NCBI GenBank assembly: GCA_013298845.1 | Contig: JAAFJN010000010.1 | Coordinates: 1 to 64,000 of the forward strand | Direction: 5' to 3' | Source of the DNA: Chitinophagales bacterium | GTDB lineage: Bacteria; Bacteroidota; Bacteroidia; Chitinophagales; Saprospiraceae | DNA length: 64,000 nt | Shown: piece by piece, positions 11,823 to 41,361 of the stretch | Numbering within the stretch: the stretch's first letter is position 1 | Layout of the letters: each line of letters opens with the position of its first letter | Program-made: the position numbers and the translations under genes | The notes under the pieces: generated by a model | What the model saw: the letters and a program-made list of their open reading frames with translations, nothing else | Told to the model about the DNA's origin: nothing | The model's database searches: none

Positions 11823-14630
11823 TCATTGACCTCCTTCGCGGTGAGGCACAGTCTGTACCGCCGCATTAAACAATGTTAACTGTTGGATACGGGTACCAAC
11901 CAAACTGCCCAAACGAATTCCTTCTTCGCAATCCATTCGGTAATGTACCCCGTTATACAGCCGAGAAAGGGCATTTTCGTATGCCATACTTTTAAAATTG
12001 GAAAAAGAACGGGGCATCCCCAAAAGTTCTTTTCGATTGACATAACTGTTGTCGGTCATTTCAAAATTTTCTCCAAACACCTGCTCCAATACACCAATTG
12101 CCGCATACCCGAAAGTAGCGTGCCCCGATGGAAACGACGGAAACGGCGGCGCTTCGTGCAAGGGACTCCAGTTAGGCTCAATATTGCGTCGAATATAAGT
12201 GGCGGGCCTTTCGACATTGTACAGGTATTTGGAATACCAACACGTTACGGCGGCGTCGTTGAGGGCGATACCCAGTTTCAGATAAAGGCCCAATACCGTT
12301 TTGAGGGATGGCGGCTGCTGCTCTACGGCCTGGTGCGCAATGGAAATCCAGCGGGCAGTTGTGGTAAATGAAACACCGGAGAAATCATCGCTCCAAAAAT
12401 TCGCAATCCATTGTTTTTCGGGCGATAAGGGTTGCGAAATAGCGTAAACCTCCATCGCTTGTGCAAACATAACCGAGCCTTTATCTTCCGAAAAATGGGG
12501 CTTTACCGGGGGGATGCCTATTTCATCTACGTGCAAATAAAAAGTGCGCGCTTTCCCCCAATGCGGCAACAACGCCGGGTAACGTTCGTTGCTGTCCGGT
12601 TGCCACCCTCCGGCTTGTTGCGGCAGAATAAAATTGCGGTCGTAATTAAACAAGTGCGCCATGTGCCCAATCGAATCGGTGGCCGACCAGGCGCACACGG
12701 CCTGCGCTACGGTTTTGCCATATTGAGCGGAGGCATTGATTTCTTCTTCGGTGTATTCCTGGCTGAATTGGGCCAAAAAATGTTCCGAAAGTGCTAAATA
12801 GCGCTGTTTTGACGTCATTTCGGTTGTCGCGAAGAAGTAGTTCGTCATGACGGAATAGGCCGAATTTAAAGCAATTGCCGGAATAAATTTTTGATCCGAA
12901 CTCCAAATGGGCGGCACCAAACCACCCGTTTCTTTGGCAATGGACACCCCATTTTTATACAAAGGCAATCCGGTTTCCCACGCGGCAATACCCATGTACG
13001 CGAACATACGCGCGCTCACGGGAGGCCGATAACCTTCGGTGTTTTGGTCCAAATCCACCAGTAATTTATTCCACTCCTGAACTACGGTCACGGCATCTTT
13101 TGATTCGGAGGGTTCTTCTCCCGAGGGCCTGCAACCACTCCACACAACCGCCGCAACTACCAACGCGTAAAATAGCCGCGCGAGACTTTTGAGGCGCAAA
13201 TTGGTGGTGTGAAGGTGTTTTTGGGGTACGTGCATATTACTGTCGGGTACCGCCAACTCAACCGGCTCGTTGAGGGCAAAAAGCAGCGTAAAAGTGGTGC
13301 CATTATGTTCATCTGATTGGACGCGCAGATCAATTTGGTGCAATTTGACGATACTTTTTACCAGAGAAAGCCCCACGCCCGAGCCTTTTTGGCGGGTATG
13401 CTGGGTGCTCCGGTAAAAGGGTTCAAAAATGCGTTCTATTTCATCGGGAGGGATGGGTGCCCCGGCGTTAGATACGGCAATTTCCAGTTGGTTATCGGGT
13501 TGAAGGCCGATCCGGGCCACCACCGTTTTATCGGGTGAAAACTTGCACCCGTTTTCAAATAAATTTAAAAGAGCGGTGCGCAACAAGGCTTCATTGCCCT
13601 GTACACACATCAACGATTCGTCTTCGGGTAATTGGTCAATTTGGATTTTTACGGTGTATTCCGGGTGGTTTTTTAACAAAGCCGCCCGCGTTTGGTACAA
13701 GAGTTCATCGGGGCGGATGGGTTCCATCTCGATTGTGTTTTCCTGCGAGTGAATACGCGCCAATTGTAATAATTTATCGGCAGTATCGGTCATATTTTGC
13801 ACGTATTCTTGCAGCGAACGGAGTAGTGTATCTTGTTCTGAATGCAACCCGGTTTTGTTTTGAGCCAGTTGTAACTGAGCGTGCATGGCCGCAAGGGGGT
13901 TGCGTAATTCGTGCGACACATTGGAAATAAACCCTTTTTGCATGTAAAATGCGTATTCTATGCGGTCCAATAAGCGGTTAAAAGTAGCCGCCAAATGGGA
14001 AAGTTCGTCTTTTTGGTGTTCATTTTTGATCCGTTTACTCAAATCGGTGGGTAAAATATGTTCCACCTCGTGAACGATATGCGAAACTGGATACAAGGCT
14101 TGCCCGGCGTAAAACCACCCACCATAAGCCACCGCCAAAACGACCAGAACTAACGTTACCAAAAGGATGTTTTGCAGTTGGTATAATTTGGAAAAATCGG
14201 GCCGATCTTCCGAAATAACCAGGTAGTTACCACCCGACGATGACATAATATTGGTGGTAAAAATGGCAAAACCATCTTGTTGCAACTTGCAGGTGCCCGC
14301 TTTTCGGTACGTGGCCAACTGGCTGGGCGTAGGCAGGTTCCCCACGGTATTCAAGGCAAATACCAGTTGCATTTTAGGGTCGAGGATCAGGATATTCCCG
14401 GCATCGGGCAGGCGATCGGCGGGGTTACCCACGTTTACATCAATGGGTTTTAGTTCATCCTCGTGTTTTAGTACCATGTGCGCCGTCATTCGTGCTTTCC
14501 CCTCCAACAGCGTAAAGAACTCGTTTTCAACGTGATACTTAAATTGCTGGTAAATAAACACCAATGCCGCAATAAAAATGCAGGCCGTTAGCAACATGAA
14601 CTGAAGCGTAAGTCGTGTTCTTATTTTCAT
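11823..14630 (-). CDS. Histidine kinase fused to a vanadium haloperoxidase/PAP2 domain
   Basis: 935 aa in one uninterrupted frame. Segment 1 (1-452) is a standard sensor kinase: TM1 about 10-28, sensor loop 30-152, TM2 about 154-174, HAMP, phospho-acceptor His240 in SHELRNPL, N-box Asn360, G1 SNAGAPI, F-box FEPFYRS and G2 GSGVGLSLV. Segment 2 begins near Met466 with a basic stretch and a third hydrophobic helix (about 483-498, LARLFYALVVAAVVW) followed by SGC500, a lipobox-like site with an atypical Trp at -3. Segment 3 (510-935) has the full acid-phosphatase/haloperoxidase signature: K801-x6-R808-P809, PSGH at 834-837, and S889-R890-x5-H896-x3-D900. Predicted topology puts the kinase in the cytoplasm and the haloperoxidase in the periplasm. 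The start codon overlaps the response regulator stop (TAATG). Segment 3 is paralogous to the gene at 15459. An internal start at 13235 (Met466) would give a free lipoprotein. Confidence 0.85.
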   Translation of the reverse strand: MKIRTRLTLQFMLLTACIFIAALVFIYQQFKYHVENEFFTLLEGKARMTAHMVLKHEDELKPIDVNVGNPADRLPDAGNILILDPKMQLVFALNTVGNLPTPSQLATYRKAGTCKLQQDGFAIFTTNIMSSSGGNYLVISEDRPDFSKLYQLQNILLVTLVLVVLAVAYGGWFYAGQALYPVSHIVHEVEHILPTDLSKRIKNEHQKDELSHLAATFNRLLDRIEYAFYMQKGFISNVSHELRNPLAAMHAQLQLAQNKTGLHSEQDTLLRSLQEYVQNMTDTADKLLQLARIHSQENTIEMEPIRPDELLYQTRAALLKNHPEYTVKIQIDQLPEDESLMCVQGNEALLRTALLNLFENGCKFSPDKTVVARIGLQPDNQLEIAVSNAGAPIPPDEIERIFEPFYRSTQHTRQKGSGVGLSLVKSIVKLHQIDLRVQSDEHNGTTFTLLFALNEPVELAVPDSNMHVPQKHLHTTNLRLKSLARLFYALVVAAVVWSGCRPSGEEPSESKDAVTVVQEWNKLLVDLDQNTEGYRPPVSARMFAYMGIAAWETGLPLYKNGVSIAKETGGLVPPIWSSDQKFIPAIALNSAYSVMTNYFFATTEMTSKQRYLALSEHFLAQFSQEYTEEEINASAQYGKTVAQAVCAWSATDSIGHMAHLFNYDRNFILPQQAGGWQPDSNERYPALLPHWGKARTFYLHVDEIGIPPVKPHFSEDKGSVMFAQAMEVYAISQPLSPEKQWIANFWSDDFSGVSFTTTARWISIAHQAVEQQPPSLKTVLGLYLKLGIALNDAAVTCWYSKYLYNVERPATYIRRNIEPNWSPLHEAPPFPSFPSGHATFGYAAIGVLEQVFGENFEMTDNSYVNRKELLGMPRSFSNFKSMAYENALSRLYNGVHYRMDCEEGIRLGSLVGTRIQQLTLFNAAVQTVPHREGGQ

Positions 14631-15304
14631 TATTCTTTAACGATATAACCCACCCCGTGATGGGTATGAATTAGTTTTTTTTCAAACTTTTTATCAACTT
14701 TATTGCGGATATACCCGATGTAAACCTCAATAACGTTGGTGTTAATTTGTTCATCAATATTCCAAACCTGTTCCAATAACTCTGTTTTGGAAATAACCCG
14801 GCCCTGGTTGCGAACGAGGTAGGTCAGTAAGGCAAATTCGCGGGGGGTAAGGATAATTTTTTCATTGCTGCGCCATACTTCCAACGTTTGAAGGTCCATT
14901 TCCAGGTCTTGAAAAACCAGTTTACTGGACACTGATGAGATATTGTGCGCCCGGCGGACCAATGCCTGAATCCGCGCCAACAATTCGCGTAAATCAAATG
15001 GTTTGGAAAGGTAATCATCGGCACCGGACTCTAAACCCAAAACCTTGTCTTCGGGTTGATACAAAGCCGATAATAACAAAATTGGGGTGGTTATATGGGC
15101 ATTTCTTATTTTTTTACAGAGTTCGACGCCATTTAGTTGTGGCATAATTATATCGCTGACAATGACATCATATTCGCTTTTTTGGGCCATTTGAAGACCC
15201 GTCGCTCCGTCAAAAGCGCAATGAACGATTATTTGGGCGTCTTCCAAAAATGCCTTGACACTTTCGGCAACCTTCAATTCATCTTCAATTAATAATACCT
15301 TCAT
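14630..15304 (-). CDS. OmpR-family response regulator
   Basis: 224 aa. The receiver domain (1-115) has phospho-acceptor Asp51 in VIVSDIIMPQ, the acidic pocket in LLIEDE, the switch residue in LLLSA and Lys in YLSKPFD. The C-terminal winged helix (about 128-224) is OmpR/PhoB type: LTPREFALLTYLVRNQGRV and VIEVYIGYIRNKVDKKF, ending in HTHHGVGYIVKE. It acts as a DNA-binding regulator phosphorylated by the kinase whose ATG overlaps its stop codon. The divergent haloperoxidase-like gene (15459) is the obvious target. The 13-bp palindrome TGCGCGATGCGCA at 15328-15340 lies just upstream of its own start. Confidence 0.95.
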   Translation of the reverse strand: MKVLLIEDELKVAESVKAFLEDAQIIVHCAFDGATGLQMAQKSEYDVIVSDIIMPQLNGVELCKKIRNAHITTPILLLSALYQPEDKVLGLESGADDYLSKPFDLRELLARIQALVRRAHNISSVSSKLVFQDLEMDLQTLEVWRSNEKIILTPREFALLTYLVRNQGRVISKTELLEQVWNIDEQINTNVIEVYIGYIRNKVDKKFEKKLIHTHHGVGYIVKE

Positions 15305-15384
15305 GTAAGGGCAAATATCTAAACTATTGCGCGATGCGCAGCAGTTGCGTTGTATTTCTTAGAATTTTCTTATCGGTTTTTTTA

Positions 15385-15414
15385 TTTGCTCCGCCAATTT
15401 TGGCCTGAACTTTG
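15385..15414 (+). promoter_or_regulatory. Candidate promoter of the haloperoxidase-like lipoprotein gene
   Basis: TTTG (15385-15388), an 18-base spacer and GAACTTTG (15407-15414, one mismatch to TAnnTTTG) lie about 45 bases before the start codon. The spacing is one base short of the usual range, so this is a weaker match than others in the window. Confidence 0.4.
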
Positions 15415-15458
15415 TACCCGAAACTTTTAATACCATACATTCTTAATCAAGAACAAAC

Positions 15459-16841
15459 ATGAATTTTTTTAAACACAACTTTTTGTTGGGTTTTATGGCT
15501 TTCCTCTTGTTGGCTAGTATCATAATCCCCGCCTGTAAAACGAACGAAACGGACACCCCGGAGGCCGCACTGGTCAGTTCATTCGATAACGACGTTATTT
15601 ACGAATGGAACGAACTATTTCTCGAAATAGAACGCTACGCTGCTGGTTATCGGCCTGGCCCCGCACCCCGGGCTTTGGCTTATTTGGGGCTTTCGGCCTA
15701 TGAAGCCTGTTTGAAAGGTATGCCGGACCACAATTCGGTGGCTAATTTGTATGCTGGTCTCACCATTCCGGAGGCCGATAACACCGAGTACCACTGGCCT
15801 ACGGTGATTAATGCCTCTTATGGTTATCTTATGCCCCGTTTTTTCGCAAATGTAGATGAAAATTTGCGTCAAAAGATCCTGGTAATGGAAAATAAATGGA
15901 ACGAGCAAAGCCGGGAAACCCTCAGCACCGAGGTTTTTGAACGCTCGCGCAAGTACGGTATTGACGTAGCCGCTGCGGTGTGGGAATATTCAAAAACGGA
16001 CGTTATTGGCCACGATCACTACCTTGATCCATTTCAAAATTATAACTGGAATGAATTTTACGACAGTGAAGGCGATTGGCGCCCAACTTTCCCCGGCCCG
16101 GGCAAACCCATGGGCGGAGTTTGGGGCGGTGCCCGCACTTTTGCAATTACCGAAAAACTATGTCGTAAACCCCTGAATTATTCAGCAGCACCAACTTCTG
16201 AATTGTACGCCCAGGCATTGGAAGTGTACGCTCAAAATACCCCAACGCTTTCTTACGAAGATGAATGGGTGGGCGAATTTTGGAGCGACGACTTGCTCAA
16301 TCTTACATTCAGCCCGGGTCCACGCTGGTTGGCGGTTGGCGATCAGGTATTACGTTTGGAAAAAAGTAATCTCGAAATAGCACTGTTTATGACCATCAAA
16401 ATGGGTTTCACCCTTAACGATTCGGCCGTTGCTTGCTGGTTCTCTAAATTCTTTTACAACGTAGAACGCCCACAAACGTACATCAACCGCGTTATTGATC
16501 CTACTTGGAAACCTGCTTTGTATAACCCACTCACGGGTGAAGAAGGCGTAACGCCCTCGTTCCCGGCTTATCCTTCTGGCCACTCCACTATGGGTGCCGC
16601 CGGTGCCGAAATCCTGGGCGATCTTTTTGGGTATGCTTACGCCATGACCGATCGTTGCCACGAAAAGCGCGTTGAGTTTGAAGGCACTCCCCGTACTTTT
16701 GGTAGTTTCTTCGAAATGGCACAGGAAAATGCCTGGTCTCGCGTGCCACTGGGTGTGCACTTTCGCATGGATTGCGAAGAAGGTGTTCGCTTTGGTACCG
16801 AAATTGGTCGCAAGATTAATAACCTGCCCTGGAAAAAATAA
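15459..16841 (+). CDS. Vanadium-dependent haloperoxidase/PAP2-family lipoprotein
   Basis: 460 aa. Signal with lipobox IIPAC (Cys26) predicts lipidation and an extracytoplasmic site. The catalytic signature is complete: K330-x6-R337-P338, PSGH at 372-375, S427-R428-x5-H434-x3-D438. The same fold binds vanadate in haloperoxidases, which oxidise halides with H2O2, or acts as a phosphatase; sequence alone does not decide. It is clearly paralogous to the C-terminal half of the neighbouring histidine kinase: KFFYNVERPQTYI against KYLYNVERPATYI, and GVHFRMDCEEGVRFG against GVHYRMDCEEGIRLG. It is divergent from the response regulator gene and ends at a strong terminator. Confidence 0.9.
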   Translation: MNFFKHNFLLGFMAFLLLASIIIPACKTNETDTPEAALVSSFDNDVIYEWNELFLEIERYAAGYRPGPAPRALAYLGLSAYEACLKGMPDHNSVANLYAGLTIPEADNTEYHWPTVINASYGYLMPRFFANVDENLRQKILVMENKWNEQSRETLSTEVFERSRKYGIDVAAAVWEYSKTDVIGHDHYLDPFQNYNWNEFYDSEGDWRPTFPGPGKPMGGVWGGARTFAITEKLCRKPLNYSAAPTSELYAQALEVYAQNTPTLSYEDEWVGEFWSDDLLNLTFSPGPRWLAVGDQVLRLEKSNLEIALFMTIKMGFTLNDSAVACWFSKFFYNVERPQTYINRVIDPTWKPALYNPLTGEEGVTPSFPAYPSGHSTMGAAGAEILGDLFGYAYAMTDRCHEKRVEFEGTPRTFGSFFEMAQENAWSRVPLGVHFRMDCEEGVRFGTEIGRKINNLPWKK

Positions 16842-16940: not shown

Positions 16941-16969
16941 AAACGAAATTGTTTAATGTTACATTTCTG

Positions 16970-17461
16970 ATGGACAAAATAATATTTCCGGTACTTCTTT
17001 TATTTGTTGCGGCCTGTACCGCCAATTCAAACAGTGACCGAAAGGAGTTTTTTGAAAATGGCCAAATCAAAAGCCAGGTGCCTTTGGTGAACGGAAAAAG
17101 AAATGGCAAAATGATTGATTATTATCCCGATGGGAAAATCAGGGCAGAACGGGCTTTTGCCGACGATGTCCAAATGGGAAAAACGGTGTTCTACTATCCC
17201 GATGGGCAGGTGCAGGAAATACAGTATTATCACAACGGTGCCCGGATCAACGGCGATTCTATTTGGTACCCCAATCGGGCATTACAATTTGCCGTAACCA
17301 TGCAGGCCGGTAAAAAAAACGGCTATTTGCGCAAATGGGACGAATCCGGCAACATGATTTATGAAGCCAAATATTCTATGGATACCTTAATTGAGGTAAA
17401 CGGAACGCCCTTATCTATTAAAAGAAATCCCACCCCAATTGACCCGCGAAGGGGGTATTAG
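16970..17461 (+). CDS. MORN-repeat (YwqK-type) lipoprotein
   Basis: 163 aa from the ATG at 16970, which gives a lipoprotein signal (MDKIIFPVLLLFVAAC). The body is a run of MORN-variant repeats of about 23 residues: FFENGQIKSQVPLVNGKRNG, YYPDGKIRAERAFADDVQMG, YYPDGQVQEIQYYHNGARIN, YPNRALQFAVTMQAGKKNG. The family is often called 'YwqK antitoxin', but nothing here supports a toxin-antitoxin role; it is a surface repeat protein of unknown function. It lies 42 bp before the FecA-like receptor on the same strand, and they are probably co-transcribed. Confidence 0.85.
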   Translation: MDKIIFPVLLLFVAACTANSNSDRKEFFENGQIKSQVPLVNGKRNGKMIDYYPDGKIRAERAFADDVQMGKTVFYYPDGQVQEIQYYHNGARINGDSIWYPNRALQFAVTMQAGKKNGYLRKWDESGNMIYEAKYSMDTLIEVNGTPLSIKRNPTPIDPRRGY

Positions 17462-17503: not shown

Positions 17504-19681
17504 ATGAGGCGTTTTTTATTTATATTTTTTATCTTTTTTAGTGCGGTTTTATCCGCCCAAGTCAATCAGGATTCTTTAAAAAATGTTCAACTGAAACAAA
17601 CTACAGTAACCGGATATAGACACGATCAATCCGTTAAAACCCTTCCCGGAATACACCAAACGTACATTATCGGGGGGCGCAAAAGTGAAGTGATTAATGT
17701 GCAGGATTTGCCCGCAAATATTGCCGAAAAAAACGGCCGACAAATTTTTGCAAAAATACCCGGCGTTTTTGTTTATGATATGGATGGCTCGGGAAATCAG
17801 GTGAATATTGCAACCCGCGGCCTCGACCCGCACCGCAGTTGGGAGTTTAATGTCCGCCAAAATGGCGTTGTGATTAACTCCGATATCTATGGTTATCCCG
17901 CCAGCCATTACAGCCCACCCATGGAATCGGTCAAAAATGTGGAGATGGTACGCGGTACTGCGGCTTTACAATACGGCGCGGAATTTGGTGGTATGATTAA
18001 TTACGTAACCAAAACGGCCGATACTACCCGCGCATTTTCCTTTGAAACCATGAATACTGTGGGGTCATTCGGACTACTCAGTTCGTATAATGCCGTTGGT
18101 GGGCGTAAAGGCAAATGGACGTATTATGGCTACATTCAAAGACGCACATCGGAGGGATACCGCGACAATGCCCGCTCTACTTCCGAAGCGCAATACGTTA
18201 ATATCCAATACCAAATTAACCGCCGGATGAACCTTACAATGGAATTGGGGCGCAATAGTTACGTGTACCAATCGCCCGGTCCCTTGACGGATAGTATGTT
18301 TTTTGCCAACCCTAGGCAAGCGACGCGCAACCGTAATTTTTACCAACCCAATATTTATGTGCCTTCCATTCATTTTAACTGGCAAATTAGCGACCATACA
18401 CAATTGAATTGGATCGTTTCCGGCTTGTACGGCAGTCGCAACAGCGTAGAATTTGAGGGGTTTGCCGACCGCGCCGATGCCATTGATCCGGCGACCAATC
18501 AATGGCGAAATCGGGTGGTAAATATTGATAATTTTGATTCAAAAACCTCCGAGTTGCGCTTGTTGCACCATTATCAAATTGGCCGGTTTAAAAATGTAGT
18601 GGCGGCGGGTATTCGTTATTTCAACAATGACATGCACCGCCGACAGCAGGGCAAAGGCACCAATGGCACCGATTTTGATTTGTCGATCACCGGCGATTGG
18701 GGCCGCAATATGTGGTACCGCAGCGAAAGTATCGCGTTCTCCGTCGAAAACATGATTTACCTCACGGACCGATTCATTGTCTCCCCCGGTTTCCGGTACG
18801 AATACGGAAAGACGGACATGACCGGTTTTATCAGTTATTTGGACCCGCAGGATATTCCCAACCGGATTAATCACAATATTCCCGCTTTGGGCATCAATAC
18901 GCAGTATCTCCTGACCGAAAATGCCCGTTTGTACGCGGGTATTTCGCAAGCCTATCGGCCGGTGTTGTTTAAAGATATTATCCCCGGTTCTACCCTGGAA
19001 CGCGCCAACAAAGACCTGAAAAATGCTTTTGGGTACAATCTTGAATTGGGCAGTAGTGGCCGCATCAAAGACGTGTTAAAGTACGATATCACCTTGTTTC
19101 GGGTACAGTACAATAACCGGCTGGGTAATATCGTCGTGAACGAAAATGGCACCAATTATATCCTAAAAACCAATATCGGCAACAGTTACACCAACGGGGT
19201 TGAGTTTTTTGCGGAAGCCTACGTTTACCGCTCGCCCATAAGCCAGGTTTCGGTCTTTTCCTCCACGTCTTTTATGGAGGCAAAATACCAGGATGCGCAA
19301 TTGGCCGTTGGTACCGAAAACCGGGATATTAGCGGCAATTCTGTGGAAAGTGTTCCGCGTTGGATCAGCCGCAACGGCCTCAATGCAGCCTACAAAAAAT
19401 GGAATGGTGTCCTCCAGTATAGTTACGTGGCCGAATCGTTCAGCGACCCTTTGAATACGGTAGCACCTACCGCCAACGGTGCGCGCGGAATTGTACCGGC
19501 CTACGGCGTTTGGGACTTCAACATGGCGTATCGGGTATTCCCCAATTTGGTGTTGCGTGCAGGTGTCAGTAATTTTTTGGACAACCAATATTTCACCAAA
19601 CGGCCTTTGTTTTATCCCGGGCCGGGTGTTTGGAGTTCGGACGGACGTGGCTGGAATATATCTATGAATTTAATATTGTAG
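17504..19681 (+). CDS. FecA-like TonB-dependent outer-membrane receptor
   Basis: 725 aa with signal peptide (MRRFLFIFFIFFSAVLSAQ). The TonB box region is short (LKQTTVTGYR), without the carboxypeptidase-like N-domain of SusC proteins. The plug domain follows (about 50-165: NGRQIFAKIPGVFVYDMDGSG, NIATRGLDPHRSWEF, VKNVEMVRGTAALQYG), then a 22-strand barrel ending in NISMNLIL. The plug resembles FecA/ferric-siderophore and other metal-chelate receptors, so it likely imports a metal complex by TonB energy. It follows the MORN lipoprotein and ends 5 bp from the convergent DsbA-like gene. A link to vanadate or iron supply for the nearby haloperoxidases is speculation. Confidence 0.92.
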   Translation: MRRFLFIFFIFFSAVLSAQVNQDSLKNVQLKQTTVTGYRHDQSVKTLPGIHQTYIIGGRKSEVINVQDLPANIAEKNGRQIFAKIPGVFVYDMDGSGNQVNIATRGLDPHRSWEFNVRQNGVVINSDIYGYPASHYSPPMESVKNVEMVRGTAALQYGAEFGGMINYVTKTADTTRAFSFETMNTVGSFGLLSSYNAVGGRKGKWTYYGYIQRRTSEGYRDNARSTSEAQYVNIQYQINRRMNLTMELGRNSYVYQSPGPLTDSMFFANPRQATRNRNFYQPNIYVPSIHFNWQISDHTQLNWIVSGLYGSRNSVEFEGFADRADAIDPATNQWRNRVVNIDNFDSKTSELRLLHHYQIGRFKNVVAAGIRYFNNDMHRRQQGKGTNGTDFDLSITGDWGRNMWYRSESIAFSVENMIYLTDRFIVSPGFRYEYGKTDMTGFISYLDPQDIPNRINHNIPALGINTQYLLTENARLYAGISQAYRPVLFKDIIPGSTLERANKDLKNAFGYNLELGSSGRIKDVLKYDITLFRVQYNNRLGNIVVNENGTNYILKTNIGNSYTNGVEFFAEAYVYRSPISQVSVFSSTSFMEAKYQDAQLAVGTENRDISGNSVESVPRWISRNGLNAAYKKWNGVLQYSYVAESFSDPLNTVAPTANGARGIVPAYGVWDFNMAYRVFPNLVLRAGVSNFLDNQYFTKRPLFYPGPGVWSSDGRGWNISMNLIL

Positions 19682-28459: not shown

Positions 28460-28822
28460 ATGGATAGTAGCGCTTATTTACCCGTTGTTCTTCAATCTTT
28501 AGTTGCCATTGGCTTTGTGGTATTCGTGTTAGTGGTAACGCACATACTGGGACCAAATCGCAAAAGCAAAATCAAAAATGAAAACTTTGAATGTGGCATT
28601 GAATCGCAAGGTAATGCCCGTATCCCGGTTTCCATTAAATATTTTATGACCGCCATTCTTTTCGTCCTTTTTGACGTAGAGGTGATTTTCTTTTATCCTT
28701 ACGCCGAAAATTTCCGGGCGTTGGGTTGGAATGGATACATGGCTGTACTTATGTTCGTAGGCGTGTTCCTGCTGGGATTCGTGTACGTTTGGAAAAAAGG
28801 TGCCCTTGAATGGGATCGTTAA
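28460..28822 (+). CDS. nuoA: NADH-quinone oxidoreductase subunit A
   Basis: 120 aa with three membrane helices (about 8-30, 57-78 and 88-110). The long loop between helix 1 and 2 has the subunit signature FECGIESQGNARIPVSIKYFMTA, with the conserved Cys that lines the quinone-site region. DVEVIFFYPYA carries the family's acidic residues in helix 2. It is the first gene of the operon, and nuoB follows after 30 bp. Confidence 0.96.
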   Translation: MDSSAYLPVVLQSLVAIGFVVFVLVVTHILGPNRKSKIKNENFECGIESQGNARIPVSIKYFMTAILFVLFDVEVIFFYPYAENFRALGWNGYMAVLMFVGVFLLGFVYVWKKGALEWDR

Positions 28823-28852
28823 TTGTAAAAATACTCAAATCAAGTAAATAAT

Positions 28853-29389
28853 ATGGCAAAAATAGAAGAAATGCCTGAAGGTTACGGTGGCGAAGGCTTT
28901 TTCGCTACTTCTTTAGATAAAGCGGTTGGTTTGGCACGTGCTAACTCCATCTGGCCGTTGCCCTTTGCTACGTCCTGCTGCGGTATCGAATTTATGGCAA
29001 CCATGGGTACCAACTACGATTTGGCCCGCTTCGGGATGGAACGCCTGTCGTTTTCGCCCCGCCAAGCCGATTTGCTGATGGTCATGGGTACAATTGCTAA
29101 AAAAATGGGTCCGGTTTTGCGCCAGGTTTATATCCAAATGGCCGAACCCAAATGGGTAATTGCCGTGGGCGCTTGCGCCAGTTCGGGTGGTATTTTTGAT
29201 ACCTACTCCGTTTTACAAGGTATTGATAAGGTAATTCCGGTGGACGTGTACGTGCCCGGTTGCCCGCCTCGCCCCGAACAAATTATTGATGGCGTTATGA
29301 AAATTCAGGAACTGGTGAAAAATGAGCCGCTGCGCCGCCGCCATTCTCCCGAATACCAACATTTGCTCGAAAAATATCAGATTGCATAA
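28853..29389 (+). CDS. nuoB: NADH-quinone oxidoreductase subunit B (N2 cluster)
   Basis: 178 aa peripheral subunit that holds the terminal [4Fe-4S] cluster N2, which passes electrons to quinone. The ligands are visible: the tandem Cys pair in [10 protein letters not shown], Cys in [12 protein letters not shown] and Cys in [11 protein letters not shown]. The N-terminal 30 residues are unremarkable. The stop overlaps the nuoC start as TAATG, so the two are translationally coupled. Confidence 0.97.
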
Positions 29390-29922
29390 TGGCACTGACG
29401 AATGAATTGGCTTTTGCCAGAATAGAACAAAAAGGTGCTCATTTTATTAAGAGCAGCGAAACCGCTTACGATGGTATGTTAAACGTGGTGACTACCCGTG
29501 AACAAATCATCGAATTTTTGCGCTTTTTACGCGATGATGAACAATTGCAATGCAATTTTCTGACGTCGCTGTGCACAGTGCATTATCCGGAAAGCGCAGG
29601 CGAAGAATTCGCCATCGTTTATCACCTTCATAATTGGATGGATAATTTCAGAATCCGTGTGAAGGTATTTTTACCCGAAAGTGATCCTTCCATTCCTACC
29701 GCAACCACTCTTTGGCCTACCGCCAACTGGATGGAACGTCAGGAATTTGACTTTTTCGGTATTCAATTCACGGGACACCCCAACCTTACCCGCATCCTGA
29801 ATGTGGATGAAATGGACGTGTTCCCCATGCGTAAACAGTATCGCCTCGAAGATGGTACCCGTACCGATAAAGATGACCGCTACTTTGGTCGCGACGGTAA
29901 TTACGCCCAAACTTTTGATTAG
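29389..29922 (+). CDS. nuoC: NADH-quinone oxidoreductase subunit C
   Basis: 177 aa, a separate NuoC (not fused to NuoD as in E. coli). The 30-kDa subunit signature is WPTANWMERQEFDFFGIQFTGHPNLTRIL, followed by FPMRKQYRLED. It forms part of the connecting Q-module with NuoD, NuoB and NuoI. The start overlaps the nuoB stop by one base, and nuoD begins 3 bp after its stop. Confidence 0.96.
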   Translation: MALTNELAFARIEQKGAHFIKSSETAYDGMLNVVTTREQIIEFLRFLRDDEQLQCNFLTSLCTVHYPESAGEEFAIVYHLHNWMDNFRIRVKVFLPESDPSIPTATTLWPTANWMERQEFDFFGIQFTGHPNLTRILNVDEMDVFPMRKQYRLEDGTRTDKDDRYFGRDGNYAQTFD

Positions 29923-29925
29923 ACT

Positions 29926-31131
29926 ATGCAAGTACAATCATACTTTTCGCAAATTGATAGCCTGGAAGGTGAATTGGCAACCCTCAATCTGGGACCAACG
30001 CACCCCGCAACCCACGGAATTTTCCAAAACGTGATGAAAATGGACGGCGAGCGCATTGTTAGCGCCGAACCAACCATCGGATATATCCACCGCGCTTTTG
30101 AAAAATTGGCCGAACGCCGCCCGTACAACCAGATTACTCCAATTACCGACCGCCTCAACTATTGTTCCTCGCCCATTAATAATATGGGGTGGCACATGAC
30201 GGTCGAAAAACTGGCGAAAATTGAAGTGCCCAAACGCGCGCAATACATGCGCGTTATCATTATGGAATTGGCGCGTATTGCCGATCACCTCGTGTGCAAC
30301 GCTGTAATCGGGGTAGACACGGGTGCTTTGACGGGCTTTACGTACATGTTCCAGGAGCGCGAATTTATTTATGAACTGTACGAAGAGGTTTGCGGTGCTC
30401 GTCTGACGACCAATATCGGTCGTATCGGCGGGATGGAACGCGACTTTTCACCCACTTTCCACAAGAAGTTAAAACAGTTTTTGAACGAATTCCCCGCGAA
30501 ATTCGAGGAGTTTAACAACCTGTTGGAGCGCAACCGGATTTTTATGGACCGCACTATCGGTGCCGGCCCGATTGAAGGAAAACGCGCCATGGACTACGGT
30601 TTTACTGGTCCTAACCTGCGCGCTGCCGGTATTGACTACGATGTGCGCGTGATGAATCCTTATTCTTCTTACGAAGATTTCGATTTCATTGTACCGGTGG
30701 GCATTAATGGCGATACTTACGACCGCTTTATGGTACGTCAGGAAGAAATTCGCCAATCGCTCCGCATTATCCATCAAGCGTACAACAACCTGCCGGAAGG
30801 AGATTATCACGCCGATGTGCCAGATTTTTATCTGCCGTCCAAAGAGGATGTGTACACCAAAATGGAAGCCCTCATTTATCACTTCAAAGTTGTGATGGGC
30901 GAAACCCCGATCCCGGCGGGAGAAGTGTACCACGCGGTAGAAGGTGGTAACGGCGAATTGGGTTTTTACCTCGTGAGCGATGGCGGTCGTACGCCGTATC
31001 GTTTGCACTTCCGTCGTCCCTGCTTTATTTATTACCAGGCGTACCCGGAAATGATTAAAGGCTCCATGCTCTCGGATGCCATTTTAACCATGAGTTCGAT
31101 GAACGTGATTGCAGGAGAGTTGGATGCTTAA
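29926..31131 (+). CDS. nuoD: NADH-quinone oxidoreductase subunit D
   Basis: 401 aa, the 49-kDa subunit whose fold descends from the NiFe-hydrogenase large subunit. Signature LNLGPTHPATHGIFQNVMKMDGERI near the N-terminus contains the His loop at the quinone site, and GYIHRAFEKLAERRPYNQITPITDRLNYCSS continues the family pattern. The C-terminus DAILTMSSMNVIAGELDA carries the conserved Asp region. It binds quinone together with NuoB. Confidence 0.97.
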   Translation: MQVQSYFSQIDSLEGELATLNLGPTHPATHGIFQNVMKMDGERIVSAEPTIGYIHRAFEKLAERRPYNQITPITDRLNYCSSPINNMGWHMTVEKLAKIEVPKRAQYMRVIIMELARIADHLVCNAVIGVDTGALTGFTYMFQEREFIYELYEEVCGARLTTNIGRIGGMERDFSPTFHKKLKQFLNEFPAKFEEFNNLLERNRIFMDRTIGAGPIEGKRAMDYGFTGPNLRAAGIDYDVRVMNPYSSYEDFDFIVPVGINGDTYDRFMVRQEEIRQSLRIIHQAYNNLPEGDYHADVPDFYLPSKEDVYTKMEALIYHFKVVMGETPIPAGEVYHAVEGGNGELGFYLVSDGGRTPYRLHFRRPCFIYYQAYPEMIKGSMLSDAILTMSSMNVIAGELDA

Positions 31132-31165
31132 TTAAAAATTGAATTAAAAGAAATTTTTTCATAAA

Positions 31166-31708
31166 ATGCACGCAGTAACTGAAAATAGCGCACCTTTTAA
31201 CTATTCGGATGCTTCACTGAAAGAAGTAAAGGCGTTGATGAACAAATACCCCGAAGGCCGCGGTAAAAGCGCGCTGATTCGTGCGCTGCACATCGCGCAA
31301 GAGGAAAACAACGGTTGGCTGAGCGTTCCCGCTATGGATCACGTAGCCGAAGTATTAGGAATTACGCCCATCGAAGTGTACGAGGTAGCCACGTTTTATT
31401 CCATGTACAACCTGGAACCCGTGGGCAAATACGTGTTGGAGTTTTGCCAAACCGGCCCCTGTGCCATTGAAGGAGCGGAGCGTATTATTGAATATACAAA
31501 ATTGAAATTGGGCGTTGGCAAAAACCAAATAACCCCCGATGGTCTTTTTACCATTAAACAGGTAGAATGCCTCGGTGCTTGTGGTTATGCACCCATGATG
31601 CAAGTGGGAGAATTCTTTCACGAACACCTTGACGAAGCCAAAATTGACCAGTTTATTGAAGACTGTCGTGCAGGGAAGATTGATAAGGGGACGTGGAAAA
31701 TGCACTAA
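31166..31708 (+). CDS. nuoE: NADH-quinone oxidoreductase subunit E
   Basis: 180 aa, thioredoxin-like subunit with the [2Fe-2S] cluster N1a. Ligands are in FCQTGPCAIEGAE (C-x4-C) and ECLGACGYAPMMQV (C-x3-C). The N-terminal helical part contains ALIRALHIAQEENNGWLSVPAMDHVAEVL. It belongs to the NADH-input module with NuoF, which is normally the next gene. Here an MFS transporter, an SH3 lipoprotein and a DUF2750 gene separate them. Confidence 0.96.
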   Translation: MHAVTENSAPFNYSDASLKEVKALMNKYPEGRGKSALIRALHIAQEENNGWLSVPAMDHVAEVLGITPIEVYEVATFYSMYNLEPVGKYVLEFCQTGPCAIEGAERIIEYTKLKLGVGKNQITPDGLFTIKQVECLGACGYAPMMQVGEFFHEHLDEAKIDQFIEDCRAGKIDKGTWKMH

Positions 31709-31747
31709 TATATTTCTATACTTAACGACGACTAACTTTATTGATTT

Positions 31748-33271
31748 ATGGCTACAACATCTACCATTCTCGACAGTGATATGTCCGGGGGACCTACTCA
31801 GGAAGCCGATAATAAACCCAACCTTTCGTTGTGGCAAATTATCAGTATGAGTTTTGGTTTTTTGGGTATTCAGTACGGATTCGGTTTGCAACAGGCAAAC
31901 ATGAGTCCGATTTATCGTTATTTGGGAGCCGACGAAAGTTCGATTCCGGGTTTATGGCTCGCCGGGCCGTTAACGGGATTGTTGTTGCAGCCAATCATTG
32001 GTGCGTTATCCGACCGAAGTTGGTCGCCGCGTTGGGGCCGTCGTAAACCCTATATCTTCATTGGAGCCATAGTGGGTAGTATTGCTATGATTTTGATGCC
32101 TAACTCAAAATCGGTGTTTATGGCTGCCTGTCTTATGTGGCTTCTTGATGCGGGTTTGAACTCCGCAATGGAACCGTTCCGTGCGTTTGTAGGCGATATG
32201 TTGAACCGCAAACAACGCCCGGTTGGTTTTTCGGTACAATCCTTTATGGTAGGTTTTGGACAAACAGCCTCCAACCTGATGCCGTTTATTCTGCCTTTAA
32301 TTGGTATTTCAATGGCATTAACCAGCGATCAATTTGATTTGTCCAATGGTATTCCGAATTCCGTTCGTTATCCGTTTTACATCGGTGCAGCGGCCATTTT
32401 GTCCACGGTATTTTATACGATGTGGACAACTAAGGAATACCCGCCCGAGAATGAAGATTATAAAAAGCCCCACCAGTTTACCGCTGAACAAATTAAAAAT
32501 ATCGCTTTTTGGCGCTTGGCACTCACGGGTGGCGCGGCCTTAATGGCGGGATTGTTTGCGGCCAGAACGGGTGGCGCTACCAATGGTTTGATCTGGGCTT
32601 TTGGCATTTTGGTCATATTGTATTTGCTGCTGGGTTTAGGCGTATTTAAAGAAATTTTGGCATCACTTTCCGAAATGCCAGAAGTGATGAAGCAATTGTG
32701 GTGGGTAAAGTTTTTCACGTGGTACGGTTTGCCGCTTATGTGGCAATATTTATCTCTGGCTGCGGCAAAGTACGCGTTTAATGCGCCCAGCCCGGAGGCC
32801 AATCCAATGGGTTTTGAAGAAGGAAAAAACTGGGGCAGCCTTTGTTTTGGGATGTTCAGTATTTCCTGCTTCGTTATTTCGTTGTTTATCCCGCAAATCG
32901 TAAATCGCATTGGCAGCCGCCGACTCACCCACGCTATTTTTCTGGGTATCGGGGCGTTGGGCTTTTTTAGTGTTTTGATCAGCAATGATAAAATGGTATA
33001 CCTTGTTGGTATGACCTTAATTGGTTTGGCTTGGGGTTCTATCATGTCATTGCCTTATCTAATGCTCGCCAATTCGGTAAGCGCATCCCGAATGGGGGTT
33101 TACATGGGTATTTTTAATGGATTTATCTGCGTACCGCAATTTATTGGTATGCTGACAGTTCCGCTTTATTATAAATCAGTACTGGGCGACGATCCACGTA
33201 ACGCGCTTGTTTTGGCGGGTGTTTGTATGGTACTTGCTGCCGCCAGTTGTTTTTTGGTAAAGGAAAAATAA
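31748..33271 (+). CDS. SLC45/GPH-like MFS sugar transporter inside the nuo operon
   Basis: 507 aa with 12 predicted membrane helices. The first helix, [25 protein letters not shown], and [20 protein letters not shown]...[13 protein letters not shown] (the MFS loop 2-3 motif) closely resemble SLC45-type sucrose/maltose proton symporters. [20 protein letters not shown] in helix 4-5 fits too. It probably imports a disaccharide with protons. It starts 39 bp after nuoE and is followed by two small genes, then nuoF. Its composition resembles the nuo genes, so the insertion is not obviously recent. Confidence 0.88.
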
Positions 33272-33288
33272 CTTAAACTTTTTATACA

Positions 33289-33978
33289 ATGAGAACACTT
33301 TATTTTTTTATCGCTACGCTGTTGATTTTATCTTCTTGTCAGGAAGAAGCACCTGATTCAAGCAAAGAATTAACGCGTTTAAGAAAAGAACTGGAGCAGA
33401 AGCGGCAGGCGTTGACCGATCAAAAGGAGATTGCCAAATTGGAGGACGAACTTAACCGGATAGATCGGGAATTAAACCAGGTCAGCACAGGAACCGTTAC
33501 CAATCCTAAGGCCGCTGCCACAACCACAACGAATGACACCCCCGCCGCGTCCGGTTTTGCGACCGATGAAGAAGGTGCGGCGGTGATTAAAGGAAACAGC
33601 GTGAATATGCGCAGCAGCCCATCGGTGCAAGCCACTCGGATTGCCAGTTTTAATAACGGAGAAATTGTACGCGTACTCGAAGCCAAGCAGTCGGGAAAAA
33701 ATAATGAAGCCATTTTGACCAAAAATATTGAACTCTATGGCGACAATAATCAAACAGGGAAACCATTGGCAACCCTGAATAAAGGCAAAGCAGTTGTGAT
33801 TGAAGGGTATCAGGGAGATATGCTAAATGTATCTTACCAACACCCGGAACGCGGCAAACTTTTTGCCCAAATTAAAGAATCTGATGTCGAAAGCATCGAA
33901 AATGGAGCATGGTACAAGGTCACCCGAAGCAACGGACAAACCGGTTGGGTGTACGAAAAATTTATCTCCGTTAACTAA
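33289..33978 (+). CDS. Lipoprotein with split (nested) bacterial SH3 domain
   Basis: 229 aa. Lipoprotein signal with lipobox LILSSC (Cys17). A coiled coil follows (about 25-65: ELTRLRKELEQKRQALTDQKEI) with a Thr/Ala linker. Then comes an SH3b start (VIKGNSVNMRSSPSVQATRIASFNNGEIVRVLEA), whose closing half (AWYKVTRSNGQTGWVYEKFISVN) appears only about 70 residues later. The intervening piece looks like a second SH3-like barrel (IELYGDNNQTGKPLATLNKGKAVVIEGY). SH3b domains bind peptidoglycan peptides, so envelope attachment is plausible. It lies 17 bp after the MFS gene and 18 bp before the DUF2750 gene. Confidence 0.85.
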   Translation: MRTLYFFIATLLILSSCQEEAPDSSKELTRLRKELEQKRQALTDQKEIAKLEDELNRIDRELNQVSTGTVTNPKAAATTTTNDTPAASGFATDEEGAAVIKGNSVNMRSSPSVQATRIASFNNGEIVRVLEAKQSGKNNEAILTKNIELYGDNNQTGKPLATLNKGKAVVIEGYQGDMLNVSYQHPERGKLFAQIKESDVESIENGAWYKVTRSNGQTGWVYEKFISVN

Positions 33979-33996
33979 TATCAAATTTTTAAAGAC

Positions 33997-34419
33997 ATGG
34001 CTCAATTACGACCAGAAGAAATTGATAAACTATTCAAAAAACCGGGCGAAAAGCGCTACGATTACTTTATTAAAACTGTAGCCGATACGGAAGAAGTGTT
34101 CGGGCTGGCCGATGAAGAAGGTTGGCTGCTGCTGGGTGATGAAGACAACGAAGAAAGTGAAGACATTTTGCCGTTGTTTCCCGGTGCTGAATTTGCCGAG
34201 CGTTTCCGCGTTGAACACGGTTTTGAAGAGTACGGCATTGGAATCGTGGATGTGAACGAATTGCTCACTTGGCTCGATGAAATGGAAGAGGATAATATGG
34301 TAGTTGCCGTATTTCCCGATCTACAAGCCAGTGGGGTTGTGATTGCGCCCGCCGGTTTGAAACAGGATTTGGCCCAAGAGTTGGAGAAATACGACGAAGA
34401 GGGCAAAAAACTTAAATAA
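33997..34419 (+). CDS. DUF2750-like acidic protein
   Basis: 140 aa, strongly acidic, with no signal peptide. YDYFIKTVADTEEVFGLADEEGWLLLGDEDNE followed by ILPLFPGAEFAERFR and the C-terminal AVFPDLQASGVVIAP follows the DUF2750 layout (immunity/SUKH-like small proteins of unknown role). The assignment is from memory. It is the third gene of the cargo block between nuoE and nuoF. After an 88-bp gap, which contains a perfect -7 box TAACTTTG at 34487-34494, nuoF begins. Confidence 0.75.
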   Translation: MAQLRPEEIDKLFKKPGEKRYDYFIKTVADTEEVFGLADEEGWLLLGDEDNEESEDILPLFPGAEFAERFRVEHGFEEYGIGIVDVNELLTWLDEMEEDNMVVAVFPDLQASGVVIAPAGLKQDLAQELEKYDEEGKKLK

Positions 34420-34507
34420 AGTTGGCGATCATTTTTGAAAAATAAAATCTTAAAATAACAAGATCAAAGTACCGGTATTATCCAAATAACTTTGAATAAA
34501 GTAAAAT

Positions 34508-35851
34508 ATGGGACGTAAACTACTTTTGGAACACGCGCACGTAGAAGGTATCAATACCTACGAAGTCTATCGTAAGCACGGCGGATATCGTTCCGTGGAA
34601 AAGGCGCTCAAGTCCATGACGCCAGATGAAGTGGTAGAGGAAGTAAAAAAATCTGGCCTCCGTGGTCGTGGTGGTGCGGGCTTCCCAACGGGTATGAAAT
34701 GGTCGTTTTTGGCCAAACCCGAAGGTGTGCCGCGTTACCTGTTGTGCAATGCCGACGAATCGGAGCCAGGTACGTTTAAAGACCGTTACCTCATGGAAAA
34801 AATTCCCCACCTGCTCATCGAAGGGATGATTACCTCTTCTTATGCGCTGGGTGCCAATACCTCTTATATCTACATCCGGGGCGAATATTCGTGGATCGTT
34901 TTTATCCTCGAAAAAGCCATTCAGGAGGCTTACGATAAAGGTTGGTTGGGGAAAAATATCCTTGGAACGGGGTATAACCTCGATTTGTACGTCAATCCCG
35001 GTGCAGGTGCTTATATCTGCGGGGAAGAAACGGCACTCATCGAAAGTTTGGAAGGCAAACGCGGCAATCCGCGGATCAAACCTCCCTTCCCGGCGGTAAA
35101 AGGTTTGTGGCAGGCCCCAACGGTGGTCAATAACGTAGAAACTATTGCGGCGGTTGTTCCGATTGTGAACGACGGTGGCGACGAGTACGCTAAAATTGGC
35201 ATTGGCAAAAGTACCGGCACCAAATTGATTTCGGCCAGCGGCAACATCAACAAACCAGGTGTGTACGAAATTGAATTGGGTGTACCCGTGGAAGAATTTA
35301 TTTATTCGGATGAATGGTGCGGCGGCATTAAGCGTGGCAAACGCATCAAAGCCTGCGTTCCCGGCGGTTCTTCCGTTCCAATTTTGCCCCATTACCTCAT
35401 CAATAAAACAGCAGCCGGTGAGAGCCGCCTCATGACCTACGAAAGTCTCGCCGATGGCGGTTTTGCTTCGGGTTCCATGTTGGGTTCCGGTGGTTTTATC
35501 GTGTACGACGAAGATCAGTGCATTGTGCGTAACACCATGAATTTTGCGCGTTTTTACCACCACGAATCCTGCGGTCAGTGTTCGCCCTGCCGCGAAGGAA
35601 CCGGCTGGATGGAAAAAGTATTGCACCGCATGGAGTACGGACAAGGCAAAATGAGCGATATTGATTTATTGGCCGAAGTGGCTAAAAAAATTGAAGGAAA
35701 TACCATTTGCCCACTCGGCGATGCGGCGGCTTGGCCCGTTTCGGCGGCTATCCGCCACTTCCGCGAAGAGTTTGAATGGCACGTGAACGAACCCAAAGCC
35801 TGCCTGGAGCGGAATTATGGTTTGGTGAGCGAGCCGGTAGCAGCAGTATAG
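34508..35851 (+). CDS. nuoF: NADH-quinone oxidoreductase subunit F
   Basis: 447 aa, the 51-kDa subunit that oxidises NADH. The FMN/NADH site reads GLRGRGGAGFPTGMKWSFL and CNADESEPGTFKDR. Glycine-rich AYICGEETALIESLEGKRG follows. Cluster N3 ligands are ESCGQCSPCREGTGWM and the later Cys in NTICPLGDAAAWP. An in-frame -7-like TAACTTTG box just upstream may allow some internal initiation. The gene after it should be nuoG, but an ATPase/TOPRIM pair begins 12 bp downstream. Confidence 0.97.
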   Translation: MGRKLLLEHAHVEGINTYEVYRKHGGYRSVEKALKSMTPDEVVEEVKKSGLRGRGGAGFPTGMKWSFLAKPEGVPRYLLCNADESEPGTFKDRYLMEKIPHLLIEGMITSSYALGANTSYIYIRGEYSWIVFILEKAIQEAYDKGWLGKNILGTGYNLDLYVNPGAGAYICGEETALIESLEGKRGNPRIKPPFPAVKGLWQAPTVVNNVETIAAVVPIVNDGGDEYAKIGIGKSTGTKLISASGNINKPGVYEIELGVPVEEFIYSDEWCGGIKRGKRIKACVPGGSSVPILPHYLINKTAAGESRLMTYESLADGGFASGSMLGSGGFIVYDEDQCIVRNTMNFARFYHHESCGQCSPCREGTGWMEKVLHRMEYGQGKMSDIDLLAEVAKKIEGNTICPLGDAAAWPVSAAIRHFREEFEWHVNEPKACLERNYGLVSEPVAAV

Positions 35852-35863
35852 AGCCATAATAGA

Positions 35864-36892
35864 ATGAAAGATAACGGACATATCACTTATTTTGAGATTA
35901 AAAACTTTAAGCGTTTTGATGCTTTAGAGTTGACCGATATCGGTCAGTTCAATCTTATTGTGGGTGATAATAATGTGGGTAAAACTAGTTTGCTGGAAGC
36001 GTTATCGGTGCTAAACGATAAAAACGCTCCTTCTTCCTTGTCAATGTCGCGTGTGATTTTTCAAAATTTTGGTTTTACGCTTCATAGAAGAGGTATTCAG
36101 TTTGATCAAAATAAAGATCTTTATTTTAAGTATTTGGCTAAAGATGCTCGAAAAGAACTAAATATGCGATTTAAGTATCAAAATGATGATGCTTTTTTCA
36201 CTTACACGTTAATCAACGGCGAGAGAAGTGGCGATTCGGAAGTGAAGTTTTTAAGAGGGAGTGGGCTTATGGATCAGTTCAAGACAGCACTTGGTTATAC
36301 TACCCAGAATCCCTCATTCATTCCTGCCTCCATTGATTTTGGGCAGAATATGGTGAATGATTACCAAAGCGCATTGGTGGAATCAATGTCTAATAAACGG
36401 TTGATTATCAATAATTTAAAATCTATTGATAATCAAATTGAAGAGATAGAAGTGTTGCCATTGTTAGGAAAAAATCATGTTATGATAGGTTTTAATAATC
36501 ATGACTTGTACATTCCAATTACAGCAATGGGAGAAAGTGCGGTGCGGGTTTTTTATTATTTGCTACATTTAATAAAGAATGCAGATGGGATACTGCTTAT
36601 TGATGAAGTTGATACCGGGATTCATTATTCTCGGATGAAAAGTTTTATGAAGAATCTGGTATTATTGGCCCAAAAAAACAATGTGCAGTTATTTTTATCA
36701 ACGCATAGTTTAGAATGTCAGCAAGCATTTGTCGCGTTATTTGAGGATGAAGATATGCAATCCTTTCAGCCGCTTGTTCGACAGTTTTCATTAATCGAGA
36801 CACAGGAGAAAAGAGTAGTGGCAAGTGGCAGAAATTTTGAACAACTACAAAATGCCATTGAAATTGGCTATGAGACAAGAGGAGGGCGTTGA
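35864..36892 (+). CDS. AAA/ABC-type ATPase of a two-gene cassette inside nuo
   Basis: 342 aa. Walker A is GDNNVGKTS with Lys40, an ABC-signature-like AMGESAVR lies at about 221-228, Walker B is ILLIDEVD with Asp247 and Glu248, and the H-loop is LFLSTHSLE with His281. This is the OLD/RecF-type AAA_15/AAA_21 layout used by many phage-defence ATPases. The region is AT-rich: 36421-36480 has 17 G/C of 60, whereas 35041-35100 in nuoF has 34 of 60, a sign of transfer. It starts 12 bp after nuoF and its partner begins 3 bp after its stop. It probably senses or clamps DNA or protein and controls its TOPRIM partner. That role is inference. Confidence 0.88.
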   Translation: MKDNGHITYFEIKNFKRFDALELTDIGQFNLIVGDNNVGKTSLLEALSVLNDKNAPSSLSMSRVIFQNFGFTLHRRGIQFDQNKDLYFKYLAKDARKELNMRFKYQNDDAFFTYTLINGERSGDSEVKFLRGSGLMDQFKTALGYTTQNPSFIPASIDFGQNMVNDYQSALVESMSNKRLIINNLKSIDNQIEEIEVLPLLGKNHVMIGFNNHDLYIPITAMGESAVRVFYYLLHLIKNADGILLIDEVDTGIHYSRMKSFMKNLVLLAQKNNVQLFLSTHSLECQQAFVALFEDEDMQSFQPLVRQFSLIETQEKRVVASGRNFEQLQNAIEIGYETRGGR

Positions 36893-36895
36893 TTT

Positions 36896-37555
36896 ATGAT
36901 AAAAGTAGATATTTGGACTGAAGGTATCGCAGATCAAAAATTTATCGTTGATATCTTAAAAAAAGGTTTTGAGTTCGATTTCCCTTTACCAAAGAAAGGT
37001 ACCCGCGAAATTGTATTTGACTACGAAAGCGATGCGTATAAGATAAGAGTACTGGCGTTGGGTAGTGTTAGTGCGGTTACTACACTAAATGGGTGGGAAA
37101 AGAAGAAAAACGATTTTAAGGATAATACTTTAACGGGTATTAAAAACTTGGTGATTATTGATACTGATGATAGTTTTGAGCAACAGAAGCAAAAAGTAAA
37201 AGATACTCTTGTTGATGTTGGGTTTGATATTGATTCAGATATTTACCTTTGGCCTGATAATCAGCCACATGCGTCAAAATCTGATTTAGAATCATTGTTA
37301 ATTCAATTGGTACATGAGGATCATACAGGGGTTTTGAGTTGTTTTGAAAAATATGAAGAATGCCTTAATCAACAGCAGAAAGGTTATAATACGCCCGATA
37401 CAAAAGCAAAAATATATTCTTATGCACAAACAATTACTGGTGATGGTAATGAACGTTACCGGGATTACACAAATGATTTGCATTGGAATTTAGATTTTAC
37501 CCAACCGCCTTTGAAACAATTTTACGAATTTTTGAAAATACACTTGGATAAATAA
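36896..37555 (+). CDS. DUF3226 TOPRIM-like partner of the ATPase
   Basis: 219 aa. The TOPRIM motifs are readable: Glu9 in DIWTEGIADQKFIVDIL, then LVIIDTDDSFEQQ with Asp89 and Asp91. WPDNQPHASKSDLESLLIQL corresponds to the 'LPdn...G.lE.ll' block of DUF3226. TOPRIM folds bind Mg2+ and occur in nucleases of OLD, RloB and PARIS AriB type. The C-terminal part has no recognised domain. It is AT-rich like its partner. The spacing (3 bp to each neighbour, with nuoG starting at 37559) makes the pair part of the nuo transcript. Nuclease activity is inferred only from the motifs. Confidence 0.8.
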   Translation: MIKVDIWTEGIADQKFIVDILKKGFEFDFPLPKKGTREIVFDYESDAYKIRVLALGSVSAVTTLNGWEKKKNDFKDNTLTGIKNLVIIDTDDSFEQQKQKVKDTLVDVGFDIDSDIYLWPDNQPHASKSDLESLLIQLVHEDHTGVLSCFEKYEECLNQQQKGYNTPDTKAKIYSYAQTITGDGNERYRDYTNDLHWNLDFTQPPLKQFYEFLKIHLDK

Positions 37556-37558
37556 ATT

Positions 37559-38491: not shown

Positions 38492-38521
38492 CACCTACCA
38501 TCTACTATTTAATAAACTATT

Positions 38522-39556: not shown

Positions 39557-39604
39557 AAGAACTTTATTTTTCTTTTTAGTGTTTGTCCAAAAAATGTCAA
39601 AATT

Positions 39605-40197: not shown

Positions 40198-40205
40198 CAA
40201 ATAAT

Positions 40206-40778: not shown

Positions 40779-40829
40779 TTTTTTACAGGGCTTCTTTATT
40801 TAAATAATTCATCATTCATCACTAAAAAC

Positions 40830-41327: not shown

Positions 41328-41361
41328 TTCACCGGAGTATTTGAGTAAATAATTCTAAATT

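Follow-up and report, generated by a model that had tools for sequence, protein, structure and literature searches.

Is a histidine kinase that runs on, in one reading frame, into a domain of the vanadium haloperoxidase (VHPO) type a genuine protein, and what could such a chain do? The question is raised by the first 64,000 nucleotides of contig JAAFJN010000010.1 (assembly GCA_013298845.1, a Chitinophagales bacterium of the Saprospiraceae), called here the window. A sequence-only reading had proposed that in one frame, at 11823-14630 on the minus strand, a histidine kinase with all its parts is continued by a third hydrophobic helix and by the full VHPO/PAP2 signature, and open reading frame (ORF), Pfam, residue and hydropathy analyses all agreed with it. 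The single ORF is stop-free across both parts and encodes 935 amino acids (aa). Pfam placed HAMP (residues 174-225), HisKA (231-295), HATPase_c (346-453) and PAP2 (783-915) in this order, all above the gathering score (47.7 bits against a threshold of 27.2 for PF01569). The PF01569 match and the signature K-x6-RP, PSGH and SR-x5-H (K801, R808, P809, PSGH 834-837, S889, R890, H896 and D900) place the fused domain in the PAP2/VHPO superfamily. The kinase half consists of helix 1 (about residues 8-26), a sensor domain (about 29-152), helix 2 (about 155-173), HAMP, HisKA with H240 and HATPase with N360. Hydropathy peaks, computed over 19 residues, began at residues 8, 155 and 482, which gives three membrane segments; the third peak supports the earlier suggestion that this helix would place the VHPO half outside the cytoplasm.

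An AlphaFold2 model of the 935-aa protein was built from 62 rows (the window and named-record sequences) and had a mean pLDDT of 86.7 and a pTM of 0.56; the mutual placing of the two halves is not fixed by the model. Residues 460-481 had a pLDDT below 50 and were followed by a helix at 481-499 and by the VHPO domain. In a Foldseek search with this model 4usz ranked first (E 8.2e-22, TM 0.86 by target length) and kinases ranked lower; in a phmmer search with the 441-aa VHPO part, the Zobellia galactanivorans vanadium iodoperoxidase VIPO1 (PDB 4usz/4cit) was the closest solved relative (E 1.5e-44, residues 40-421). The VHPO half is therefore predicted to have the overall fold of VIPO1, and its oxyanion-site residues align with those of the enzyme. 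VIPO1 is a stand-alone enzyme, whereas here a kinase and a third membrane helix precede the VHPO half, whose halogenation activity is putative. The signature and site are common to acid phosphatases; because VHPOs and acid phosphatases share them, the ligand is not deducible from sequence.

One explanation of the fused frame is an assembly error in an organism that has two genes. Most genomes used here are draft assemblies, all 24 other kinase-VHPO pairs read in the window's genus are split, and the window alone among the fusions retains an in-frame ATG (Met468) before the third helix. When 42 genomes of this genus were searched, the window's frame was the only one among the matches listed that is stop-free across both halves, and a one-off loss of a stop codon was suggested by this search. 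The order and family searches overturned this idea. The sequence-only reading had held that it would be wrong if homologues always kept the two parts in separate genes; collinear fusions were revealed in three further Saprospiraceae genomes, each of another genus (G872, 930 aa; G368, 927 aa; G377, 921 aa), which with the window makes four genera. The four proteins align end to end, the other three being 49, 45 and 43% identical to the window's, and H240 and N360 are unchanged in all of them. Two of the three are also present in public records (JAEUUP010000167.1 and JAKQHS010000115.1), and all three group with the window on one side of a single branch of the kinase tree (support 100/98). Unlike the window, all three lack an in-frame ATG or GTG from the kinase up to the third helix; a single in-frame TTG precedes the helix in G368, and an ATG lies within it in G872. 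Because the same collinear fusion occurs in three other genera at 43-49% identity, we regard an assembly slip as extremely unlikely and the kinase-VHPO chain as, by sequence comparison, genuine. The G377 gene (L111, 7750-10515) has a GTG start and is an orphan in its 18-kb stretch.

Fusion is nevertheless a minority state. Junctions were read for 70 kinase genes, on stretches cut from the window's genus and from other genera: 4 genes are fused, 51 have a separate VHPO gene behind them and 15 have no VHPO behind (some at contig ends). Adjacent pairs are thus fused in 4/55 cases and are separate neighbouring genes in the other 51/55, with near-copies among the latter (for example G024/G032, G023/G008 and G007/G009). 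No further fusion was seen among the matches listed in 396 genomes of the order, 398 of the family and 295 of the class; these sets overlap and scoring was limited to 2 or 3 candidates in each genome, so the fusions number at least four. No fused gene turned up on plasmids, where 80% coverage of the fused protein was reached in none of 2820 records. Two candidates picked by open-frame length (G279 and G362) have stops between the halves on translation, and a 998-aa frame in G016 runs through a stretch of N, with the halves in different frames. Since fusion is only the minority state, the lasting unit is the operon of response regulator, kinase and VHPO. We call the VHPO behind the kinase, fused or free, V2.

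The regulator is of OmpR/PhoB type, and its stop codon and the kinase start share one base (TAATG), as had been read from the letters. HisKA and HATPase_c in the kinase, and receiver and Trans_reg_C domains in the adjoining regulator, all score above the gathering cut-offs, and by domain content the pair is a two-component system. The best NCBIfam matches, TIGR01386 for the kinase and TIGR01387 for the regulator, are those of CusS/CopS/CzcS-type sensor kinases and CusR-type regulators, which share the two-helix kinase plan. These systems lack the third helix and VHPO domain found here after the kinase, and the putative targets also differ, here a VHPO together with a TonB receptor. The scores do not favour metal sensing, as both proteins missed the curated cut-offs (188.4 versus 292.55 bits for TIGR01386, 211 versus 279 bits for TIGR01387). 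A fold search with the sensor-domain model gave no match with E below 0.001, the likeness to CzcS being weak (E 0.012). In a PADLOC search the fused protein had only weak matches, to its ATPase region, which gives no indication of a defence role.

The conserved cassette comprises the regulator, the kinase and the membrane-tethered V2, divergent from a lipoprotein VHPO (VDIV, the presumed effector), often accompanied by a MORN lipoprotein and by a TonB receptor of FecA-like type (Table 1). Among 63 stretches with a regulator match, 43 have an adjoining divergent VHPO, 26 a MORN gene and 19 the gene of this TonB receptor, counts to be read with the fact that many stretches end before the last two genes could appear. 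The continuation of the divergent operon into these two genes goes beyond the earlier reading, which had also called the divergent gene a close paralogue of the fused domain: it is a paralogue, but at 35-37% identity not a close one. The nearest solved relatives of the receptor are FecA structures (E 5e-22). G032 (L032, 3321-7727) has three copies of the effector VHPO gene in tandem ahead of the MORN and receptor genes. In the window's own genome (G000) the VHPO profile matched 18 times at E up to 1e-5, nine of these at E 2e-51 or better, which amounts to a sizeable VHPO/PAP2 family.

What is kept in V2 was then compared with what is kept in VDIV. A hydrophobic N-terminal stretch is present in all 51 split V2; a Cys ends this stretch in only 33 of them, as against 43/43 VDIV, and the feature kept in V2 is therefore the membrane tether. 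The seven active-site residues (KRSGHRH) are complete in 4/4 fusions and in 43 of the 48 readable split V2 (3/51 were unreadable), the exceptions being G036, G404, G838, G963 and G985; in VDIV each residue is present in 43/43. Pairwise identities across 37 genomes correlated at 0.90 between kinase and V2, at 0.68 between kinase and VDIV and at 0.65 between V2 and VDIV. By these correlations V2 tracks the sensor operon, not the effector.

The same Cys bears on the suggestion that the fusion is a polyprotein, the third helix being a lipoprotein signal cut before Cys500 to free a lipidated VHPO. A Cys closes this helix in all four fusions (SGC, LGC, FSC and INC). A lipobox pattern (PS51257-like) fits three of them; it fails in the fourth, which has Asn before the Cys. 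This pattern fitted 12/51 split V2 and 24/43 VDIV; it rejects the Pro that is common before the Cys in VDIV, and the plain Cys count was used instead. As 18 of the 51 free V2 have no Cys at this place and would remain uncleaved anchors, and internal lipoprotein signals are unusual, we consider cleavage of the fused chain improbable.

Does the regulator control the divergent operon? A motif search in the divergent intergenic regions identified TTYTWAK-N4-TTYTWAK, pointing toward the effector gene. In 34 such regions (38 less 4 near-copies) the box was exact in 26 and had one mismatch in 5, compared with 0.15 and 2.44 in shuffles; the pattern was learned in these regions, and these counts are therefore in-sample. 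Out of sample, and with near-copies and two cassette-less loci excluded, an exact box lay in the 260 bases upstream of the receptor gene in 9/16 cases, compared with 0.02 in shuffles and with 2/182 for other long ORFs of the same stretches. With all rows included the count was 10/21, and the two cassette-less loci had three mismatches each. MORN genes had an exact box ahead of them in 2/23 cases. OmpR/PhoB regulators commonly bind 11-bp direct repeats. The regulator thus plausibly controls the divergent paralogue, with the box as its putative site.

These elements can be combined into a mechanism, which we hold to be a little more likely than not: V2, fused or free, would act as a co-sensor of the kinase, and the regulator would control the effector VHPO and the receptor. 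V2 would sit at the inner membrane, on its periplasmic side, and work with the membrane kinase, as a separate gene product in most relatives and, in the window and the three other genera, joined to the kinase C-terminus by a flexible linker and the third membrane helix. With its intact oxyanion/vanadate-type active site it would bind or turn over the substrate (or product) of the effector VHPO, perhaps a halide, peroxide, vanadate or a phosphate ester, and show the resulting state to the kinase. The phosphorylated regulator would then bind the tandem repeats of 11-bp spacing that precede the lipoprotein VHPO gene and, in relatives, the TonB receptor gene, and would alter the transcription of these genes, presumably upwards. 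The sequence-only reading had proposed a kinase that may sense by means of a domain resembling the one under its control. The regulatory part of this proposal is made plausible by the box; the sensing part fits the architecture, from which we infer it. A more specific version, which we put forward tentatively and regard as rather unlikely, is a sensor kinase with its own extracytoplasmic enzyme: at the surface of the membrane the VHPO domain would turn over halide and peroxide (or a phosphate ester), and the kinase would be set by the product or by the occupancy of the active site and would induce the paralogous lipoprotein VHPO and the TonB receptor.

The strongest rival, because the kinase has a sensor domain of its own, is that V2 is a co-expressed second effector, here tethered to the kinase, which carries out periplasmic chemistry and gives no signal, while the kinase's periplasmic domain senses. 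The intact active-site set of nearly all V2 would suit such an enzyme, free V2 genes far outnumber fusions, and the separate sensor domain is the fastest-evolving part of the kinase (median identity 0.317 versus 0.48 for the kinase core). Against it, V2 keeps its place behind the kinase and varies in step with it and not with VDIV, the same fusion persists in four genera, and the lipoprotein Cys is lost in many V2 and never in the effector VHPO. On balance we think this rival unlikely.

Several observations weigh against a co-sensor role for V2. With the N-terminal sensor domain present in the kinase, V2 need not sense; 15 of the 70 kinases read have no V2 behind them (some at contig ends), and the G377 fusion has neither a regulator nor a divergent VHPO nearby. 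The kinase-regulator correlation is 0.92, and as operon neighbours are expected to co-evolve, the correlation among kinase, regulator and V2 is unsurprising. The window's receptor gene lacks a good box (best match, two mismatches), and no box was found upstream of the three other VHPO copies of this genome that were tested (two to three mismatches). Genome-wide, the pattern is not enriched over the reversed control (29 versus 49 matches in G000), and it was rejected as a regulon finder. Finally, the V2-only tree and the regulator tree each require two changes between fusion and separation.

Two genomes with split genes, G241 and G961, group with the window and G872 in the regulator tree. In a concatenated tree of 53 rows the fused rows lie, as in the kinase tree, on one side of a branch (96/93), but a caution applies to the joining of G368 and G377, both of which are long rows. 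Because the kinase and concatenated trees group the fused rows and the other two need two changes, the history would be either a single fusion, possibly followed by a split, or two separate fusions. The effector VHPO of the window falls within its own genus (99/97), whereas the closest relatives of the window's regulator and kinase, G872 and G961, belong to other genera. The sensor and divergent operons therefore have different histories, which suggests that the sensor operon was exchanged while the divergent target operon stayed.

No description of a kinase-VHPO fusion was found in the literature searched, which was judged by title and start of abstract and left most subscription papers outside. 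The nearest printed idea found is the co-component system (PMC9214523), represented by VtrA/VtrC and ToxR/ToxS. These are fast-evolving neighbour genes, the second encoding a membrane-tethered periplasmic partner of the first. In them a DNA-binding protein is paired with a lipocalin-like one, whereas the cassette sets a VHPO fold beside a histidine kinase, in some cases within one chain, and no homology to the cassette was apparent. Adjacency and tether were read in relatives of the window, and the candidate partner has the VHPO fold, a VtrC-like fold being absent. The vIPO3 gene of Z. galactanivorans is upregulated on Ascophyllum nodosum compared with alginate or maltose (PMC9296495), and at least five PAP2 genes of Arenibacter sp. 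C-21 are homologous to 4USZ (PMC5064120). Inducers of VHPO/PAP2 genes, which are many in this genome and family, were not found in the literature searched. The cassette supplies a dedicated regulator, a candidate operator and two putative target genes, and induction by halide, peroxide, vanadate or phosphate esters is directly testable. The coexistence of fused and split states points to joint action of kinase and VHPO. A sensor in which the kinase core is followed by a third membrane helix bearing a folded enzyme domain would be of unusual design.

Table 1. Features of the kinase-VHPO locus (positions in the window)
Feature	Position	Strand	Evidence
Fused sensor histidine kinase-VHPO/PAP2 protein, 935 aa	11823..14630	-	ORF, Pfam, AlphaFold2 model, Foldseek, alignment
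VHPO/PAP2 domain, about residues 508-920; active-site set K801 R808 S835 G836 H837 R890 H896	11871..13109	-	Pfam, phmmer, Foldseek
Third hydrophobic helix, residues 481-499, then Cys500	13134..13190	-	hydropathy, AlphaFold2 model
Kinase half, residues 1-457	13260..14630	-	Pfam, model, hydropathy
OmpR/PhoB-type response regulator, 224 aa, first gene of operon	14630..15304	-	ORF, Pfam
Tandem repeat box TTCTTAG-AATT-TTCTTAT (11-bp period), putative regulator site between divergent genes	15356..15373	+	motif search
Divergent lipoprotein VHPO (effector, VDIV), 460 aa	15459..16841	+	ORF, Pfam
MORN-repeat protein, lipoprotein-like N-terminus, next gene of divergent operon	16949..17461	+	ORF, Pfam
TonB-dependent outer-membrane receptor, FecA-like	17504..19681	+	Pfam, fold/relative search

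Two further observations concern other parts of this genome. The 18-mer TTCTTAGTGTATTCTTAG occurs at three places in G000 (contigs C2, C3 and C89, outside the window), with a near-copy at a fourth, and is apparently a repeated element unrelated to the VHPO genes. Within the window, 28460-48118 is a plus-strand gene run with several complex I subunits (at 29926, 34508, 37559, 41725 and 43681), in which an MFS transporter (31748-33271) and an AAA_21 ATPase (35864-36892) are also encoded.

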